Positions 48,787 through 56,694 of a stretch of DNA of 64,000 nt are shown piece after piece (the first letter of the stretch is position 1; every line of letters begins with the position of its first letter). Source of the stretch: Meiothermus sp. (GTDB taxonomy: Bacteria > Deinococcota > Deinococci > Deinococcales > Thermaceae); NCBI RefSeq assembly GCF_026004115.1, contig NZ_BPIM01000001.1:62001-126000 (forward strand), read 5' to 3'. A program made the position numbers and the translations under genes. The notes beneath the pieces are model-generated. The model made no database searches. It saw only the letters and a program-made list of their open reading frames with translations, and was not told where the DNA came from.

Positions 48787-49161
48787 TCAATCCTGTAAAA
48801 GCGGCACCGCCTGGGGCCGCCCGTCTGGCCCTACCGCTACCATTACAAAACCCGCCCGGCAGGCCAAAACCCGCTCGAAGTTTTCCATCGGCTCGACCCA
48901 CATCTCTACTTCTACCCGCATCGAACTCTTCCCCACCTCCTTTACCCAAGCCACCAGTTCCACAATTGAGCCCTGGGGCACCGGGTGGTGGAAGTCCATG
49001 GCATCGGCGTGCACCGTAACCACTTTAGTCCGGGCGTGTCGGGTAGCGGCCACGAAGGCGGCTTCGTCCATCCAGGCCATGGCCGTACCCCCGAACAGGC
49101 TGCCGTAGTGATTGCAATCGCCAGGACGCACCAGGTGCACGGTGCGGGTTTCGCGGCTCAC
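48787..49161 (-). CDS. Acyl-CoA thioesterase, hotdog fold (YciA/BFIT type)
   Basis: The 124 residues form a single hotdog domain: HLVRPGDCNHYGSLFGGTAM (typical N-x-x-G-x-x-FGG motif), MDEAAFVAATRHA with the conserved Asp, and VELVAWVKEVGKSSMRVEVE. It should hydrolyse acyl-CoA esters. The GTG start overlaps the stop of nrdF by 4 bp behind a GGAGG site, so it is translated from the RNR mRNA; a link between the two functions is not known. Confidence 0.85.
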   Translation of the reverse strand: MSRETRTVHLVRPGDCNHYGSLFGGTAMAWMDEAAFVAATRHARTKVVTVHADAMDFHHPVPQGSIVELVAWVKEVGKSSMRVEVEMWVEPMENFERVLACRAGFVMVAVGPDGRPQAVPLLQD

Positions 49162-50441
49162 GCCCTCCTCCTGGCCCTGGCCCGCTCCTCGCGGTAGAGG
49201 ATATAGGCTCTGGCCACCTCGGGGCTGATCTCCATCAGGCCCCGTTCTACCCGATCCTGGATCTCCTCCACCGTGAGGCTTCTTGCGCTGGCCTCAAGCT
49301 TGACCGGCTCCACGATACGCCGGGCCACCCACTCAAAGTCGAGCGCTACCCCGGTGGCGGCGGCGGCCTTCTGCACCGCCCGCACAATGCGCATCTCGTC
49401 GAAGGGAACCTGCCGCCCGTCCCGCTTGACCACCAGCTGCAAGTCCGGAGCCAGCTCGGGAAAGTAAAAATCCAGGTCGGACAGAGGCTCGACGCGGGTG
49501 GCCTTGATGTAGCCGTTACCCTTGGTGGAGAAGAAGTCGTGGTTCTTGGTTTCGGTGCGCAGCCCGGCCAGCACCACCGGGTTCACATCCTGGGCCTCCA
49601 CCCCGAAGTGGGGCCTCAGCCCCAGGTTCATCAGGGCCTTATCGGCGTTGTAGCGCGAGAAGCGCAGCACCGCTTCCTCCAGCCCGATCCGGTGGTAGAG
49701 GGCCTGGGTGTAGCGGGTTTCCAGGGCGTCCAGTGTTTCCAGCAACTCCACCACCCCCGCTTCGGCCCGCGCCCGCACTTTGTCGCTCAGGCGGTTCAGC
49801 GCCTCCTGGGCCAGCAAGCCCACATAAACACCGTGGATGGCCTCATCCCGGATAATCAGGCTGATGATCTCGCCTGAACTTGTAAGCCGACCCTGCCCGG
49901 CCAGGTACAGGGGGTAGAAGAAACCCGAATAGAAGAGGTAGGACTCCAGCATCACGCTGGAGGCCATGGCCCGGTACAGGCTTTCCTCGTCGGCGATCCG
50001 GGTGTAGGCCCCGTGAATGACGGCCAGCTTGTGCTGTAGCTCGGGCTGCCCTCGCACCCAGTCGAAAAGGGCCTCGATGCGCGCCGAGGTGCACAGGGTG
50101 GAGAAAATGGAGCTATAGCTCTTGGCATGCATGTGCTCCATCGCCCCCATGAACGACAGCACCGCCTTAGCCTGGAACCCCGGTACCCATTCAGATATGC
50201 GCGGCATCCCCACACTACCCTGCACGGTATCCAGCAGGGTCAGCCCGGCCAGCACCTCCTCATAGGTGCGCTGCTCGTCGGGGGTAAGGGTCATCCAGGC
50301 CAGCTTGTCGTCCGAGAGGGGGATTTCCTCATCCACCCAGAACTGCCGTACGTTCTGGTTCCAGAACATCTGGGTGTAGCCATCCTCGGGTCGGTTCCAG
50401 TTCACTGCGGAGAATCCGCTATCAATGGTTGTGGTTTCCAT
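49158..50441 (-). CDS. nrdF: Class Ib ribonucleotide reductase beta subunit with C-terminal ATP-cone-like domain
   Basis: NrdF makes the tyrosyl radical that starts reduction of ribonucleotides. The di-metal ligands are in place (D71, E102, H105, E166, E200, H203), and Y109 is the radical Tyr. The usual C-terminal tail that docks to NrdE is recognisable (NHDFFSTKGNGYIKATRVEP, then DLDFYF, ending near 327), where other NrdF proteins stop. Here about 95 residues follow. They match an ATP-cone: LQLVVKRDGRQVPFDEMRIV at 334-353, the central helices, and SLTVEEIQDRVERGLME with VARAYILYREERA near the end. ATP-cones switch RNR activity by ATP/dATP and normally sit on the large subunit. An AAGGAG site precedes the ATG. 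Confidence 0.92.
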   Translation of the reverse strand: METTTIDSGFSAVNWNRPEDGYTQMFWNQNVRQFWVDEEIPLSDDKLAWMTLTPDEQRTYEEVLAGLTLLDTVQGSVGMPRISEWVPGFQAKAVLSFMGAMEHMHAKSYSSIFSTLCTSARIEALFDWVRGQPELQHKLAVIHGAYTRIADEESLYRAMASSVMLESYLFYSGFFYPLYLAGQGRLTSSGEIISLIIRDEAIHGVYVGLLAQEALNRLSDKVRARAEAGVVELLETLDALETRYTQALYHRIGLEEAVLRFSRYNADKALMNLGLRPHFGVEAQDVNPVVLAGLRTETKNHDFFSTKGNGYIKATRVEPLSDLDFYFPELAPDLQLVVKRDGRQVPFDEMRIVRAVQKAAAATGVALDFEWVARRIVEPVKLEASARSLTVEEIQDRVERGLMEISPEVARAYILYREERARARRRA

Positions 50442-50453
50442 CGGATGGCTCCT

Positions 50454-52532
50454 TCAAACCGCACAGCTCACGCACTCTTCTACCGAGAGGTTCTTGGTGC
50501 GGGTGTAGTAGAGGCTCTTGAGGCCTTTCTTGCTGGCGTACACGTAAAGCCGGGCCAGCTCGCGGGTGCTGGTCTCGCTGGTCACGTAGAGCACCGTGCT
50601 GATGCCCTGATCCACGTGGGGCTGGATCTCGGCCACCAGGTCGATCACCCGGTACATGTCCATGTGGTAGGCCGATTTGTAGTACCAGTAGGTCTCCTCG
50701 GAAAGGAACGGCGCCGGGTAGTAGGTGGTGGCGTTGCCGTAGGTGCGGGTCTCCACCACTTCCACGATGGGCTGGATGGAGGGGGTGGCGTTCTGGATGT
50801 AGCTGATGCTTTGGGTGGGGGCAATGGCCAGACGATAGGCGTGGTAGAGGCCGTGCTGCTGCACCAGCGCCTTTAGTCTGGCCCAGTCTTCCGGGGTGGG
50901 CAGGGGGATATGGGCAAAGAGCTTTTGCACGGCCTCGATCCTGGGGCGAAAGTCTTCGGCCAGGTAGCGCTCGAAGTAGGCCCCGCTGGCATAGTCTGAG
51001 CGCTCGAAGCCCTCGAAGCGCACCCCCCGTTCGCGGGCGATCTGCATGGAGCGCTCCAGGGAGTAGAAATTCACCGCAGCGAAGAAGCTGCGGGCAAAGT
51101 CACGGGCCTCCTCGGACTCGTAGCGCAGCCGGTTTTTGGCCAGAAAGCCGTGCAGGTTCATGGCCCCCAGGCCGACGGCATGGAAGGCCTGGTTGGCTTT
51201 GCGCACCCCGGGGGCATTCTGGATGTCCGTAAGGTCGCTGACGGCGGTGAGCATGTCCATGGCGGTGTGTACGCTCTCGGCCAGCCGCCCCGACGCCATC
51301 ACGTTGACGATGTTCAGGGAGCCCAGGTTGCAGCTAATGTCGTAGCCGATCTGGTCGTCCTGGCCGTAGTCGCCGATGACCGAGGTGGTCTGAAGCTGGA
51401 AGATCTCGGTGCAGAGGTTGGACATCTTGATCTGCCCCAGGCCCTTCAGGGGGTGGGCCCGGTTGGCGTTGCTCTTGTAGATAATGTAGGGGTAGCCCGA
51501 CTCGAACTGGGTCTGGGCGATGCGGGTGAGCATGGCCCGGGCCGAGAGGGGACGTTTTCTCACCGCCGGGTGGGCCAGCAGTTCTTCATAGCGCCGGTCT
51601 AGATCCATATCGTCCAGATGCTCGCCAAAAGCCTGATAAACCGAGTAAGGGGCAAACACGTAGAAGTCCTCACCCCGCTCGGCCAGCTCGAAGAACTTCC
51701 GCGGCACGATCAAGCCCAGGGATAGGGTCTGAATGCGGCTTTTCTCGTCGGCGTTGATCTTTTTGGTATCCAGAAAATCTTCCACGTCCCAGTGGAAAAT
51801 GTTCAGGTAAACCGCCCCGGCCCCCTTGCGCTGGCCCATCTGGTCGGCATAGTTGAAGGCATCCTCCAGCAGCTTCATCACCGGCACCACGCCCTTGGCC
51901 GCGTGCGCTACCCCCTTGATGGGTTCGCCTCGAGCGCGGAGTTTGGAGAGGTTCAAAGCCACCCCACCCCCGATTTTGGAGAGCTGCATGGCGGCGTTAA
52001 GGTGGAAACCTATGGCGTTCAGGCTGTCGTCGAGCTCCAGCAAAAAGCAGCTCACCAGCTCCCCCCGTCTCGCCCGCCCGGCGTTCAGGAAGGTGGGGGT
52101 AGCGGGCTGGTAGCGCTGCTCCATCATGGCCCGCACGTAGCTGCGGGCTTGCTCCATACTCCCCTGGGCCAGGTACAAAGCCACCGCCACGACCCGATCT
52201 TCGTAGTTTTCCAGGTAGTGTTTTTTATCATCCGACTTCAGGGCGTAGTCCTTGTAGAACTTGGAGATGGCCATGAAGCTCTGGAAGCGGAAGCCGTAGC
52301 TGTAGGCCAGGTCGGAGAGCTCGAGCACATCGGCTTCGCTATAGCGGGCAAAAAAGTCTTCGTAATAGCCCTCGGCGATGAGGGTTCGCAGCCGCTCGAT
52401 GGGCCCCTGGAAGCGCCGCGTCTGCTGTTTGGCCTCGGCCTCGAAGGCCAGGGCAGCCTCGAGGTCCTTCTCAAGCTGAAAAAAACCGTTCTGCTTTTGC
52501 AGTACGGCGCTGTTGAGTTCAAGGTATCGCAT
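50454..52532 (-). CDS. nrdE: Class Ib ribonucleotide reductase alpha subunit
   Basis: The catalytic subunit, 693 residues from ATG 52532 (GAGG site 7 nt upstream). Typical features: TPTFLNAGRARRGELVSCFL (first redox Cys), IGGGVALNLSKLRARG, MSNLCTEIFQLQ and ISCNLGSLNIVN (active-site Cys pair region), and a C-terminal CVSCAV thiol tail re-reduced by a redoxin. The N-terminus starts directly with the helical domain of NrdE (YLELNSAVLQKQNGF), with no ATP-cone, as usual for class Ib. It lies between nrdI and nrdF, with gaps of 20 and 12 bp. Confidence 0.95.
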   Translation of the reverse strand: MRYLELNSAVLQKQNGFFQLEKDLEAALAFEAEAKQQTRRFQGPIERLRTLIAEGYYEDFFARYSEADVLELSDLAYSYGFRFQSFMAISKFYKDYALKSDDKKHYLENYEDRVVAVALYLAQGSMEQARSYVRAMMEQRYQPATPTFLNAGRARRGELVSCFLLELDDSLNAIGFHLNAAMQLSKIGGGVALNLSKLRARGEPIKGVAHAAKGVVPVMKLLEDAFNYADQMGQRKGAGAVYLNIFHWDVEDFLDTKKINADEKSRIQTLSLGLIVPRKFFELAERGEDFYVFAPYSVYQAFGEHLDDMDLDRRYEELLAHPAVRKRPLSARAMLTRIAQTQFESGYPYIIYKSNANRAHPLKGLGQIKMSNLCTEIFQLQTTSVIGDYGQDDQIGYDISCNLGSLNIVNVMASGRLAESVHTAMDMLTAVSDLTDIQNAPGVRKANQAFHAVGLGAMNLHGFLAKNRLRYESEEARDFARSFFAAVNFYSLERSMQIARERGVRFEGFERSDYASGAYFERYLAEDFRPRIEAVQKLFAHIPLPTPEDWARLKALVQQHGLYHAYRLAIAPTQSISYIQNATPSIQPIVEVVETRTYGNATTYYPAPFLSEETYWYYKSAYHMDMYRVIDLVAEIQPHVDQGISTVLYVTSETSTRELARLYVYASKKGLKSLYYTRTKNLSVEECVSCAV

Positions 52533-52552
52533 ATTAATCCTCACTTGCCTGT

Positions 52553-52930
52553 TCAGGCCAGACGGGGGGCCCGACGATCCATTTGCTGCAGTGCCTGCAA
52601 GAACCGCTCAGCGTCTTTGTCGCTCCCCGCCAGTTCAAACTTGAGCAAAAGGGGCAGTCCATAGCGTCCGGTGAGCACGTCCGCCGAGCGGGCAAAATTA
52701 GCGCCCCAGTTGCGGTTGCCGCTGGCCGCGACCCCCCGGATGTGGCCTCGGTTGTGCGTTACAAAGCGCTCGACCTCGGCGGGCACCTGGCCGAACCCGG
52801 TGGTGTAGGTCACCAGGACACAGGGCGCATCGATCCGTTCTTCGCCGGTCCAGATTCTGCAGCGCTGTACAGGCAGCCGTTCCACAAAGCGGGCCACATT
52901 GCCGGTTTTCGAAGCGTACGCCACAAGCAT
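52553..52930 (-). CDS. nrdI: NrdI, flavodoxin-like RNR maturation protein
   Basis: The 126 residues are typical of NrdI: VAYASKTGNVARFVERL (FMN phosphate loop), VLVTYTTGFGQVP, and ASGNRNWGANFARSADVL (flavin-binding loop). NrdI supplies oxidant to assemble the Mn2-tyrosyl cofactor of NrdF. Its presence confirms class Ib. ATG 52930 follows AAGGAGG. It is the first gene after the riboswitch. Confidence 0.93.
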   Translation of the reverse strand: MLVAYASKTGNVARFVERLPVQRCRIWTGEERIDAPCVLVTYTTGFGQVPAEVERFVTHNRGHIRGVAASGNRNWGANFARSADVLTGRYGLPLLLKFELAGSDKDAERFLQALQQMDRRAPRLA

Positions 52931-53049
52931 AGCCCCTCCTTCGGGCAAAAAAAATCCCTTGCCACTAGCGGATTCAACCCAACCAGGGCCTTTGATCTAC
53001 CCGATGCAGCCGGGGCTAAGTTTTGATGGAAAGCTTCACCTGATCCATC

Positions 53050-53165
53050 CTTTCCGTCCTTGGCGCGAGGACTGGGGAACCCTACCGGGCAGGCGATCGG
53101 GCTTTAACCGTTGCGCGACAGCGGCGGAATTGCACCGCACTTCCCCTGTTTCCGGTGGGGAAACC
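53050..53165 (-). promoter_or_regulatory. Cobalamin (B12) riboswitch before nrdI
   Basis: The minus strand reads CCACCGGAAACAGGGGAAG, then GTGCGGTGCAATTCCGCCGC, then TGTCGCGCAACGG and the B12-box-like AGCCCGATCGCCTGCC (53103-53088), the ordered core of cobalamin riboswitches. It is followed by an AGTCCTCGCGCCAAGGACG hairpin and a GATGGA/TCCATC pairing before the nrdI ribosome site. B12 would shut off this B12-independent RNR. That implies a B12-dependent class II enzyme elsewhere (inference). Confidence 0.88.
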
Positions 53166-53220: not shown

Positions 53221-54222
53221 TCAGCCGGCCAACAGGGGAGCCAGAGCATGCAGCAAGGCCTCCTGGGCTTCAGGTACTTGTGCAGAAAGGCGCAGCCACT
53301 CCGGTAAACCAAAACTGGTGCAGTCGCGTACCCGAATGCCCTGCTCGCGTAGCCTTTGAGCCACCTGGGTGGCCTGGCCCACCCGCACCATCAGGAAGTT
53401 GGCGGTGCTCTCGCGCACCTCGAGGCCCAGCTTCCTCAACCCCTGGGCCAGCTGTCTTCTCAGGAGCCAGAGTTCCTGGCGGCTTTGGGCCAGCCAGACC
53501 TGGGAAGCAGGTTGCAGGATGGCCCGCAAAAAGGCCTCTCCATGCACCCCCAGCACCCAGGAAGGGGCTATGTGGCGAAAATGGGTGAGGTCATGCGGGG
53601 CCAACAGATATCCCGCCCGCACCCCGGTCAGGCCGTGTGCTTTATTGGGGCTATAAAGCCACCAGGCCGCTCGGGGCAGCGCGGGGGGGCTTTCGCACAG
53701 GGGATAATAGGCCAGGTCGAGCACCAGGTGTGCCTGCCGGCGGTGGGCGGTTTCGGCAGCCTCCTCTAGAAAATCGTAGATTTCACCCGTCGGGTTGTTG
53801 GGCACACACAAAAAAGCTAGGGTGGCTTGGGGTAACAGGCGCAGGAAGTCGTCTTTACTCTGGGCTTTAAGCAAAGGCAGCTCGGCGGGTTGAGCTGCCC
53901 GGGCATACTCGGAAAAGGTGGGGGGCAGGATGAGCATGGGCCCCCTCAGGTAGCGCAGCCGGGTCAGGCGGTGAATGAGTTCGCTGGCACCTCCGCCCAC
54001 CGCGACCTGCTCGGGCGCAACCCCGTGGTGCTGTGCCAAGGCCGTATGAATCTCGGCATACAGCGGATCTGGGTAGTGGCTGGGGTCGGCCTGACGGATG
54101 GCCTCGAGGGCCTGGGGGTCAGGACCGAGGCCGTTGGCATTGGTCGAGAAGTCGTAACGGGGCAGAGGCCCGCTGTCGGTACCGCCGTGCACCGGCTTGA
54201 GCACATCGTCGATCATGAGCAT
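53221..54222 (-). CDS. cobD: L-threonine-O-3-phosphate decarboxylase
   Basis: A 333-residue PLP enzyme of the histidinol-phosphate aminotransferase group. It has YDFSTNANGLGP at the N-terminus, GGGASELIHRL, LCVPNNPTGEIYDFLEE, VLDLAYYPL and YSPNKAHGLTGVRAGYLL with the PLP Lys. Its place 11 bp after cbiB argues for CobD, which makes (R)-1-amino-2-propanol phosphate, the linker that CbiB joins to cobyric acid, and not HisC. The sequence alone would not separate the two firmly. No riboswitch precedes this pair. Confidence 0.85.
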   Translation of the reverse strand: MLMIDDVLKPVHGGTDSGPLPRYDFSTNANGLGPDPQALEAIRQADPSHYPDPLYAEIHTALAQHHGVAPEQVAVGGGASELIHRLTRLRYLRGPMLILPPTFSEYARAAQPAELPLLKAQSKDDFLRLLPQATLAFLCVPNNPTGEIYDFLEEAAETAHRRQAHLVLDLAYYPLCESPPALPRAAWWLYSPNKAHGLTGVRAGYLLAPHDLTHFRHIAPSWVLGVHGEAFLRAILQPASQVWLAQSRQELWLLRRQLAQGLRKLGLEVRESTANFLMVRVGQATQVAQRLREQGIRVRDCTSFGLPEWLRLSAQVPEAQEALLHALAPLLAG

Positions 54223-54233
54223 TCAGTATGGGC

Positions 54234-55169
54234 TTAGAACGTATCTAAGATTTGTTGGCACGCTTCTATTGCAGCCAGCAGCACCCCCCCCACCCAGCCG
54301 GCTCGTTGCACCAAGGCCAGGCCCCAGGTCACATCTTCGGCTGCAGGAGGACGGCCCTGCCGGTTTAGGGTATACACCCTGGGTTTGCCCAAGCGCAAGC
54401 CCAGGGCCAGGGCCAGGGCCGCCATGGGCCAGCCGGCATTGGGGGATGGCGTTTTGTGGGCCTCTCGGCGAAGAGTTGCAAAGGAGAAGCGCAAAATTCG
54501 AGAAGTACCTGCACGCCAACACCAGCCTCCGATTAGCCACACAAGCCCGGCTGTTAGCCTGGCAGGTAGCCAGTTAAGCACGTCGTCAATGCGAGCAGCC
54601 CAGCGGCCCGCCCACTCCCACTCGCCCCGGTAGCCCCACATGGCATCGGCGGTATTGGCAAACCGGTAGAGGGCTGCTCCGGGCAGGCCTAAGAGCAAAA
54701 ACCAAAAGAGCGGGGCAATAACCGAGTCCGACAGGTTTTCAGCCGCCGACTCCAGCAGGCTTTCGCGCACCTCCGATGCCGACAGGCTGGAGGTATCGCG
54801 GCTCACCAGGTATTGCAGCCGCGAGCGCCCGGCCTCGAGGCCCTCACCAAGCGCCATCTCCACGGCGTGGGCTTCATCCAGAAGCATCCGAAAAGCAAAA
54901 AGGGGCTTGAGAAACAATGCTGTCAGGAGAAGCTCGAGGCCCTGTGGTAGAAAGCTCAGCAATCCGCTCAAGATCCAGTAAATCCCAGCGAAGAATCCCG
55001 CTCCCATACACCAAAACCCGGCGCCGCCCCAAAAGGCCTGTAGAGGGGGAAGCTGGGTCAGTCCCTTGCCTACCCAAGCCAGGTAGCGCCCCATCCAAAC
55101 CACAGGATGAAACGCCCCTTTGGGTTCTCCCCAGACCCAATCAATCCACAGGGCCAGCAAAACAGTCAT
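54234..55169 (-). CDS. cbiB: Adenosylcobinamide-phosphate synthase CbiB
   Basis: A membrane protein of 311 residues (about five helices) that condenses adenosylcobyric acid with aminopropanol phosphate. Family motifs: WVWGEPKGAFHPVVWMGRYL at the N-terminus, LVSRDTSSLSASEVRESLLESAAENLSDSVIAPLFW, AANT-like FANTADAMWGYR and ARIDDVLNWLPARLTAG. ATG 55169 fits best: TTGAAG, 18 bp, TACCTT lies before it, 8 nt from the ATG. The next upstream frame positions overlap the divergent kinase promoter. cobD follows 11 bp downstream. Confidence 0.93.
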   Translation of the reverse strand: MTVLLALWIDWVWGEPKGAFHPVVWMGRYLAWVGKGLTQLPPLQAFWGGAGFWCMGAGFFAGIYWILSGLLSFLPQGLELLLTALFLKPLFAFRMLLDEAHAVEMALGEGLEAGRSRLQYLVSRDTSSLSASEVRESLLESAAENLSDSVIAPLFWFLLLGLPGAALYRFANTADAMWGYRGEWEWAGRWAARIDDVLNWLPARLTAGLVWLIGGWCWRAGTSRILRFSFATLRREAHKTPSPNAGWPMAALALALGLRLGKPRVYTLNRQGRPPAAEDVTWGLALVQRAGWVGGVLLAAIEACQQILDTF

Positions 55170-55272
55170 TGGGTCAAAAGGTATCAATCTAAGACCGCTT
55201 CCTTCAAGCTCCTCTTGTGATGAGCACCAGGCCAGAAGACGAACCCATGTTTCAGCTTTATCATCAAATAGT

Positions 55273-56694
55273 ATGACTCTTCGCACCCGCATCACCCTGC
55301 TCACGCTGGCCTTGCTGGCCTTTTCGTTGCTGCTCATCGGGGGGTCGGTGTACGGTAGTTTGCAGTTTACCCTCTACGACAGCCTGCGCCGAGAGCTAAC
55401 GGAAACATCCCAAACAGCCCAGCGCTTAATCCGCGAGCAAGGCAACCTAGACGACCTGCCTCTTACGGTCTATGGACAAGCCTTATGGGTGCCTTTCCCC
55501 AATCCTACCGCCAGCGACATCCTACAGGGGGCCGCCATACCCATCGCCAAGTCGCTGGCCCTGGGCGATGCTACCCTCAACCTCTCCGAGAAAGGGCTAC
55601 AAGAGGTTTTACGATCCGGCGGGTTCTATACTCAAACCACGCTCACCCGCCCCGACGGCAGCCAGATTCCCCTGCGGGTGCGGGCCGAGCGCCTCGAGAC
55701 CGAAATTGCCGGAATCCCCCAGGGCAAGCAGTTGGTCATTTTGCTGGTAGGCAAGTCTACCGAAAGCATCGAAAGCACCCTGGCCGATTTTGCCCGCACC
55801 TACACCGCCACGGCCCTGTTGGTGCTCGTTTTTGGTGGGCTGCTGGCCTTCCGGCTGGTACGGCAAACCCTGGAGCCATTGGAGTGGGTGGCCAAAAAAG
55901 CCGAGCAAGTGAGCAATAAGCCTGAAAAACTCCCCGAAATCGAGGGCCACAACGAGGTGGCCTCGCTGGTCAAATCGCTCAACCGGATGCTCGCCCGGCT
56001 GGAGGGCGCCTGGGAAACCCAGGGCCGCTTTCTGGCCGATGCCTCGCACGAACTGCGGACGCCAGTAACAGCCATTTTGGGGCACGTCAACTACCTCCTG
56101 CGTCGCACGCAGCTCTCGGATCAGCAGCGCGAAGGTTTAGAAATTATCAAGCGAGAATCGGAGCGCATGCACAAGCTGGTAGGCGACCTGCTCGAGCTCT
56201 CCAAGACCGGCGGAAGCTGGAAGGTCGAGCTGGGTTCAGTGCACCTCAAAACCGTGCTGGATGAAATCGAAGAGGAGTACAGCAAGAGTTTTGAGGGCCG
56301 CATCGAGGTACAGGCCCCCGATCAGGTGTGGGTACTGGGCGACCCCGAGCGGCTGCACCAGGTCATTGCCAATCTGGTTTCCAACGCCATCAAGGCCAAC
56401 TCCACCCACATACGTCTGGTGGTGCTCGATCTGGCCGAGCGGGTAGTAATCCGCGTGGAAGACGACGGTGAGGGCATCAGCAAAGAACACCTGCCCCATC
56501 TGTTCGAGCGCTTCTACCGGGTGGACAAAGCCCGTGACCGTGAGCGCGGCGGCAGCGGCCTAGGACTGGCCATCGTGCGCTCGATCGTGGAGGCTCACGG
56601 AGGCAGCGTGTGGGTCGAGAGCGAGCCCGGCAAGGGCTCGGTGTTCAACATCTCCCTCAAGCGAGCTTCTGCTCCCCATCCACAGCTGGCCTGA
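55273..56694 (+). CDS. Sensor histidine kinase
   Basis: The 473 residues have a membrane helix at 8-30, an extracytoplasmic sensor region (about 31-175) that I do not recognise, a second helix at about 180-198, a HAMP-like linker, the phosphoacceptor box FLADASHELRTPVTAI (about 260), and the ATPase domain with NLVSNAIKAN (N), EDDGEGIS (G1) and GGSGLGLAIVRSI (G2). TATCAT is 8 nt before the ATG, so it is probably leaderless. No response regulator is adjacent; the orphan OmpR-type regulator at 48021 is a possible partner. It diverges from cbiB. Confidence 0.93.
   Translation: MTLRTRITLLTLALLAFSLLLIGGSVYGSLQFTLYDSLRRELTETSQTAQRLIREQGNLDDLPLTVYGQALWVPFPNPTASDILQGAAIPIAKSLALGDATLNLSEKGLQEVLRSGGFYTQTTLTRPDGSQIPLRVRAERLETEIAGIPQGKQLVILLVGKSTESIESTLADFARTYTATALLVLVFGGLLAFRLVRQTLEPLEWVAKKAEQVSNKPEKLPEIEGHNEVASLVKSLNRMLARLEGAWETQGRFLADASHELRTPVTAILGHVNYLLRRTQLSDQQREGLEIIKRESERMHKLVGDLLELSKTGGSWKVELGSVHLKTVLDEIEEEYSKSFEGRIEVQAPDQVWVLGDPERLHQVIANLVSNAIKANSTHIRLVVLDLAERVVIRVEDDGEGISKEHLPHLFERFYRVDKARDRERGGSGLGLAIVRSIVEAHGGSVWVESEPGKGSVFNISLKRASAPHPQLA

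Follow-up and report, generated by a model that had tools for sequence, protein, structure and literature searches.

The nrdF gene at 49158..50441 (minus strand; 427 amino acids, ATG start, TGA stop) in a 64,000-nucleotide stretch of Meiothermus DNA, hereafter the window, codes for the radical subunit of a class Ib ribonucleotide reductase (RNR) that runs on, past its docking tail, into an ATP-cone. Is a cone at this end of this subunit a genuine domain, how is it distributed, and what could it do? An earlier note on the window had left open whether such a C-terminal form was described before. It was, in 2018: Rozman Grinberg et al. (eLife; PMC5794259) reported N-terminal ATP-cones on NrdBi and C-terminal ones on NrdF, and saw the C-terminal kind in no more than a few Meiothermus species (two sequences, possibly a recent event); the experiments were made on the N-terminal NrdBi cone only. 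We found no experimental follow-up on the C-terminal cone in the open-licence literature; it may have been studied elsewhere. The C-terminal cone of NrdF is real, ordinary in kind and already described.

RESULTS

Domain order of NrdF

In profile searches, residues 11–327 (49461..50411, minus strand) matched the full TIGR04171 model of class Ib NrdF (439.9 bits; cutoff 355) and residues 336–421 (49179..49436, minus strand) matched positions 2–87 of the 88 in the ATP-cone model PF03477 (70.8 bits, E 1.4e-19; cutoff 25.8), which is far above chance. The arrangement proposed in the earlier note, a complete class Ib NrdF with a genuine and complete cone behind its docking tail, was thus borne out, and the cone motifs that it had named were all found: KRDGR (339–343), DEMRIVRAVQKA and VEEIQDRVE. 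The docking tail (residues 297–327; 49461..49553, minus strand; delimited by pLDDT and alignment) is intact, with GNGYIKATRVEPLSDLDFYF ending at residue 327, and it has become internal, as supposed. It is followed by an 8-residue linker, PELAPDLQ (328–335; 49437..49460, minus strand), so that the last docking Phe, F327, is separated from the cone by eight residues only. Extensions beyond the tail Phe are present in cone-less NrdF too, e.g. in L220 and L018 (the latter is considered below); docking is therefore probably possible without this Phe as a free C-terminus.

In an alignment of 14 sequences D71, E102, H105, E166, E200 and H203, which occupy the metal-ligand positions expected for this family, were invariant, as were Y109 and Y311, presumably the radical Tyr and the tail Tyr. 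Judged by these residues the protein has metal ligands and a radical Tyr, so it is not of the metal-free class Ie type. The model of full-length NrdF had a mean pLDDT of 72.9: the core was mostly confident, residues 297–333 were predicted to be disordered (pLDDT <50) and the cone formed a beta hairpin with four helices. The closest solved structures were NrdF of B. anthracis, B. cereus and B. subtilis.

Nucleotide-binding residues, fold and selection in the cone

The residues that contact phosphates in the NrdD cone of P. copri (Lys7, Arg8, Arg87 and Arg91) aligned with K339, R340, R420 and R424 of NrdF. All four were invariant in the 14 sequences, R424 lying just outside the PF03477 match; the expected nucleotide-binding residues of the cone have been retained. 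The positions of cone–cone contact in L. blandensis (D73, M80, K89, I92, I93 and R95) aligned with D396, M403, R411, I414, L415 and R417, and in Meiothermus NrdF these six were kept or conservatively substituted, with the exception of one Asn at D396. The Lys of NrdR that contacts the outer nucleotide (K62) is replaced by Arg351 in the Meiothermus cone.

Modeled separately, the cone reached a pLDDT of 87.9. Foldseek placed NrdB of L. blandensis, 5OLK, on top (E 4e-6) and NrdA of P. aeruginosa, 5IM3, next; both are cones solved with two dATP. Cones of class III NrdD ranked after these, and 8P23 and 9D3X were also matched. The VIA-align Z scores were 11.4 for 5OLK and 10.9 for 5IM3, values that are near ties within the range of 10–12 covering 5OLK, 5IM3, the NrdD cones and NrdR. 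By its best fold and sequence matches the Meiothermus cone probably resembles the two-dATP type.

Pairwise dN/dS was 0.13–0.39 in the cone and 0.08–0.21 in the core; the cone value exceeded the core value in most pairs and stayed well below 1 in all pairs tested. On account of these ratios we regard the cone as being under purifying selection, mostly weaker than that acting on the core.

Operon and its riboswitch

The nrdF gene shares an operon with nrdE and nrdI, whose profile matches adjoin. The catalytic subunit gene nrdE (50454..52544, minus strand) matched TIGR04170 along its whole length with 1036.8 bits; a profile search for PF03477 found no match in NrdE, which otherwise has the usual RNR_N domain only, in agreement with the earlier claim of a large subunit free of the cone. 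The flavoprotein gene nrdI (52553..52948, minus strand; TIGR00333, 109.8 bits) has TTG as its first listed start; the true start is probably an ATG six codons downstream. At the other end of the operon, a gene for a YciA-like 4HBT thioesterase (48787..49161, minus strand) overlaps the nrdF stop with its GTG start, and the same thioesterase adjoins nrdF in most relatives. A promoter scan 5′ of nrdI found none, and a search for NrdR boxes gave no site with at least 12 of 16 matches to the consensus used.

Upstream of nrdIEF we found an AdoCbl-II (B12) riboswitch aptamer (53083..53157, minus strand; RF01689, 54.4 bits, gathering cutoff 36.5). Five of the seven cone-bearing relatives scanned carried a cobalamin riboswitch at the same place (RF01689 in L029, L031, L032 and L036; RF00174 in L035). 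Two other genes lie just upstream of the riboswitch of the window: one resembling a CobD-type threonine-phosphate decarboxylase (53221–54222), with a score under the model cutoff, and one for CbiB (54234–55337).

All 18 Meiothermus genomes encode NrdJ, the class II, B12-dependent reductase. B12 riboswitches commonly switch off B12-independent isozymes, and for this reason nrdIEF is probably a backup, in use when B12 is short. No ATP-cone was found on NrdJ of the window's own genome; cones do occur elsewhere in it, on NrdR and on a 477-residue protein (L003, C1:488200-488703) with at least two ATP-cone matches, which we assume to be 2-phosphoglycerate kinase-like. In four genomes NrdJ frames of 1390–1786 residues had their match in distant pieces (G005:C52, G010:C9, G011:C2 and G015:C60), which suggests inteins or insertions.

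Distribution, possible origin and probable loss of the cone

NrdF was found in 18 of the 50 genomes of the family, including 14 of the 18 Meiothermus genomes; the remaining four Meiothermus genomes were without NrdF. Every one of the 14 Meiothermus proteins matched both TIGR04171 and PF03477, the named holders including M. hypogaeus, M. granaticius, M. luteus, M. rufus and M. taiwanensis, while NrdF of two neighboring genera had no cone. Since all 14 carry it, the cone on NrdF, as read from these sequences, is a genus-wide trait, not one confined to two close sequences.

A scan of genome contigs with a tail-plus-cone profile detected NrdF and a cone in a single frame in Meiothermus only; as the scan requires perfect matches to conserved peptides, it could overlook divergent fusions. 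Ten hosts tested among the best matches outside Meiothermus proved to be class III NrdD or class II reductases that carry their cone close to the N-terminal end. The scan of viral sequences found no NrdF–cone fusion, and in 398 sampled genomes from the phylum of the Bacillus genome G111 NrdF was without a cone throughout.

The best cone match outside Meiothermus was the N-terminal cone of nrdD from Bacillus/Neobacillus. We observed that nrdF lies directly upstream of nrdD in four Bacillus/Neobacillus genomes (loci L042, L047, L048 and L052). This adjacency is a possible fusion route, or template, for the origin of the NrdF cone; an origin from nrdD falls short of proof because a domain of 90 residues is too short.

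One NrdF of another genus, L018 (genome G002), is cone-less and 82% identical to that of the window. A tree of cores placed it among the cone-bearing cores, its exact position there not being fixed (a first NrdF tree, with an overly distant outgroup, had been replaced by a second). The AU test rejected both a tree that unites all the cone-bearing cores in a single clade (p 0.002) and one that pairs L018 with the other member of its genus (p 0.002). Past the nrdF stop the L018 DNA reads AGHRAGRGSRPA before another stop follows in frame; this one falls at the thioesterase GTG overlap, which is also where the cone of the window ends. The stretch resembles what a deleted cone would leave behind but is too short for proof. 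Judging from tree and sequence, the cone was very probably lost in the L018 lineage and the gene retained. The cone-less NrdF of a third genus (L020, L021) and of genome G001 (L022) could be ancestral or could also be losses; either fits the rooting. Genome G001 has two cone-less nrdF copies with identical protein, L022 and L023, both on its contig 2 (347,854 bases).

DISCUSSION

We consider it likely that this NrdF is the radical subunit of a B12-independent backup RNR, one that B12 would repress through the RNA and that ATP and dATP would switch through the cone. The cone match, the fold matches to cones with two dATP, the invariant phosphate residues, the riboswitch and the presence of NrdJ in all 18 genomes support this reading. 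The protein is a class Ib NrdF that would be assembled with NrdI and whose cofactor is probably dimanganese-tyrosyl; its C-terminal cone would have been acquired by an ancestor of Meiothermus. While the cone holds ATP, NrdF would remain a dimer and dock on NrdE as alpha2beta2. If dATP builds up, each cone would probably take two dATP, and the loaded cones of two NrdF dimers could pair via helices 3 and 4, to give a beta4 (or alpha–beta) complex unable to hand the radical to NrdE. The cone might also influence docking directly, as it begins only about eight residues past the docking peptide.

Most likely, by analogy with N-terminal cones, dATP in the cone would stop radical transfer. For N-terminal cones on NrdB a switch of activity, acting by tetramers that form with dATP, was shown in both L. 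blandensis and F. ignava (PMC5794259, PMC6187632). Like the Meiothermus protein, NrdBi of Leeuwenhoekiella blandensis (5OLK) has its cone, two-dATP-type by fold and residues, on the radical subunit, and its large subunit has none; unlike it, the cone is N-terminal and the subclass is NrdBi, with a Mn(III)Mn(IV) center and no radical Tyr. The Grx-cone-NrdB of Facklamia ignava (PMC6187632) also bears its cone on the radical subunit and is switched by dATP-induced tetramers, but there the cone is N-terminal and accompanied by a glutaredoxin domain, again in the NrdBi subclass. NrdEF of Bacillus subtilis (PMC6572854) is a class Ib enzyme with activity control, and Bacillus NrdF is the closest solved core; its control, however, is exerted by sites on NrdE and by filaments, and its NrdF is cone-free. 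The geometry of the Meiothermus cone could differ from that of the studied ones, as it is C-terminal here and N-terminal there. Neither do the retained contact positions prove a beta4 complex, because they are partly common to cones generally, as in P. copri NrdD.

Counted against a switch are Arg351 at the position of NrdR K62, a cone dN/dS that mostly exceeds that of the core, and L018, which manages without a cone. One could suppose that the cone binds ATP and dATP and controls the docking of NrdE in cis, by blocking or freeing the tail, with no NrdF tetramers involved. The short gap from F327 to the cone fits such a mode, as do the location of the studied cones at the opposite end of the protein and the tail extensions past the Phe in cone-less L220 and L018; the helix 3 and 4 positions of the L. 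blandensis beta4 contact are nevertheless retained, and we hold docking control in cis to be rather unlikely. Were it true, it would be a new regulatory route for a reductase, other than NrdF tetramers.

The faster change of the cone relative to the core in most pairs, and its loss in at least one relative that kept the gene, could also be expected of a decayed or neutral passenger from a gene fusion. We find this very improbable: none of the key residues varies among 14 species-level genomes, all tested pairs have a dN/dS far under 1 and all Meiothermus NrdF found carry the cone. Still less credit, practically none, can be given to an assembly or annotation artefact, a frameshift that fused two genes, as the same open frame and junction recur in 14 separate assemblies with proteins 64–90% identical to that of the window; nothing was found in favor of this explanation, and the relatives refute it. 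The ATP/dATP switch through the cone is the reading that we keep.

The Meiothermus NrdF of the 2018 report (PMC5794259) agrees with ours in domain order, subclass Ib, genus, cone-free NrdE and a second RNR in the genome; it differs in resting on two sequences, as against 14 genomes here. To that report the present analysis adds these 14 genomes, the conservation of residues, purifying selection, the predicted fold, the probable loss in a relative, NrdJ in all 18 genomes and the B12 riboswitch, by which the nrdIEF operon would be controlled at a second level. As the cone is very probably missing by loss in a close relative, the putative switch is open to study in natural pairs with and without it. 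How freely an allosteric domain can be moved between non-homologous subunits and termini and still work is a question that this arrangement puts to the test in nature.
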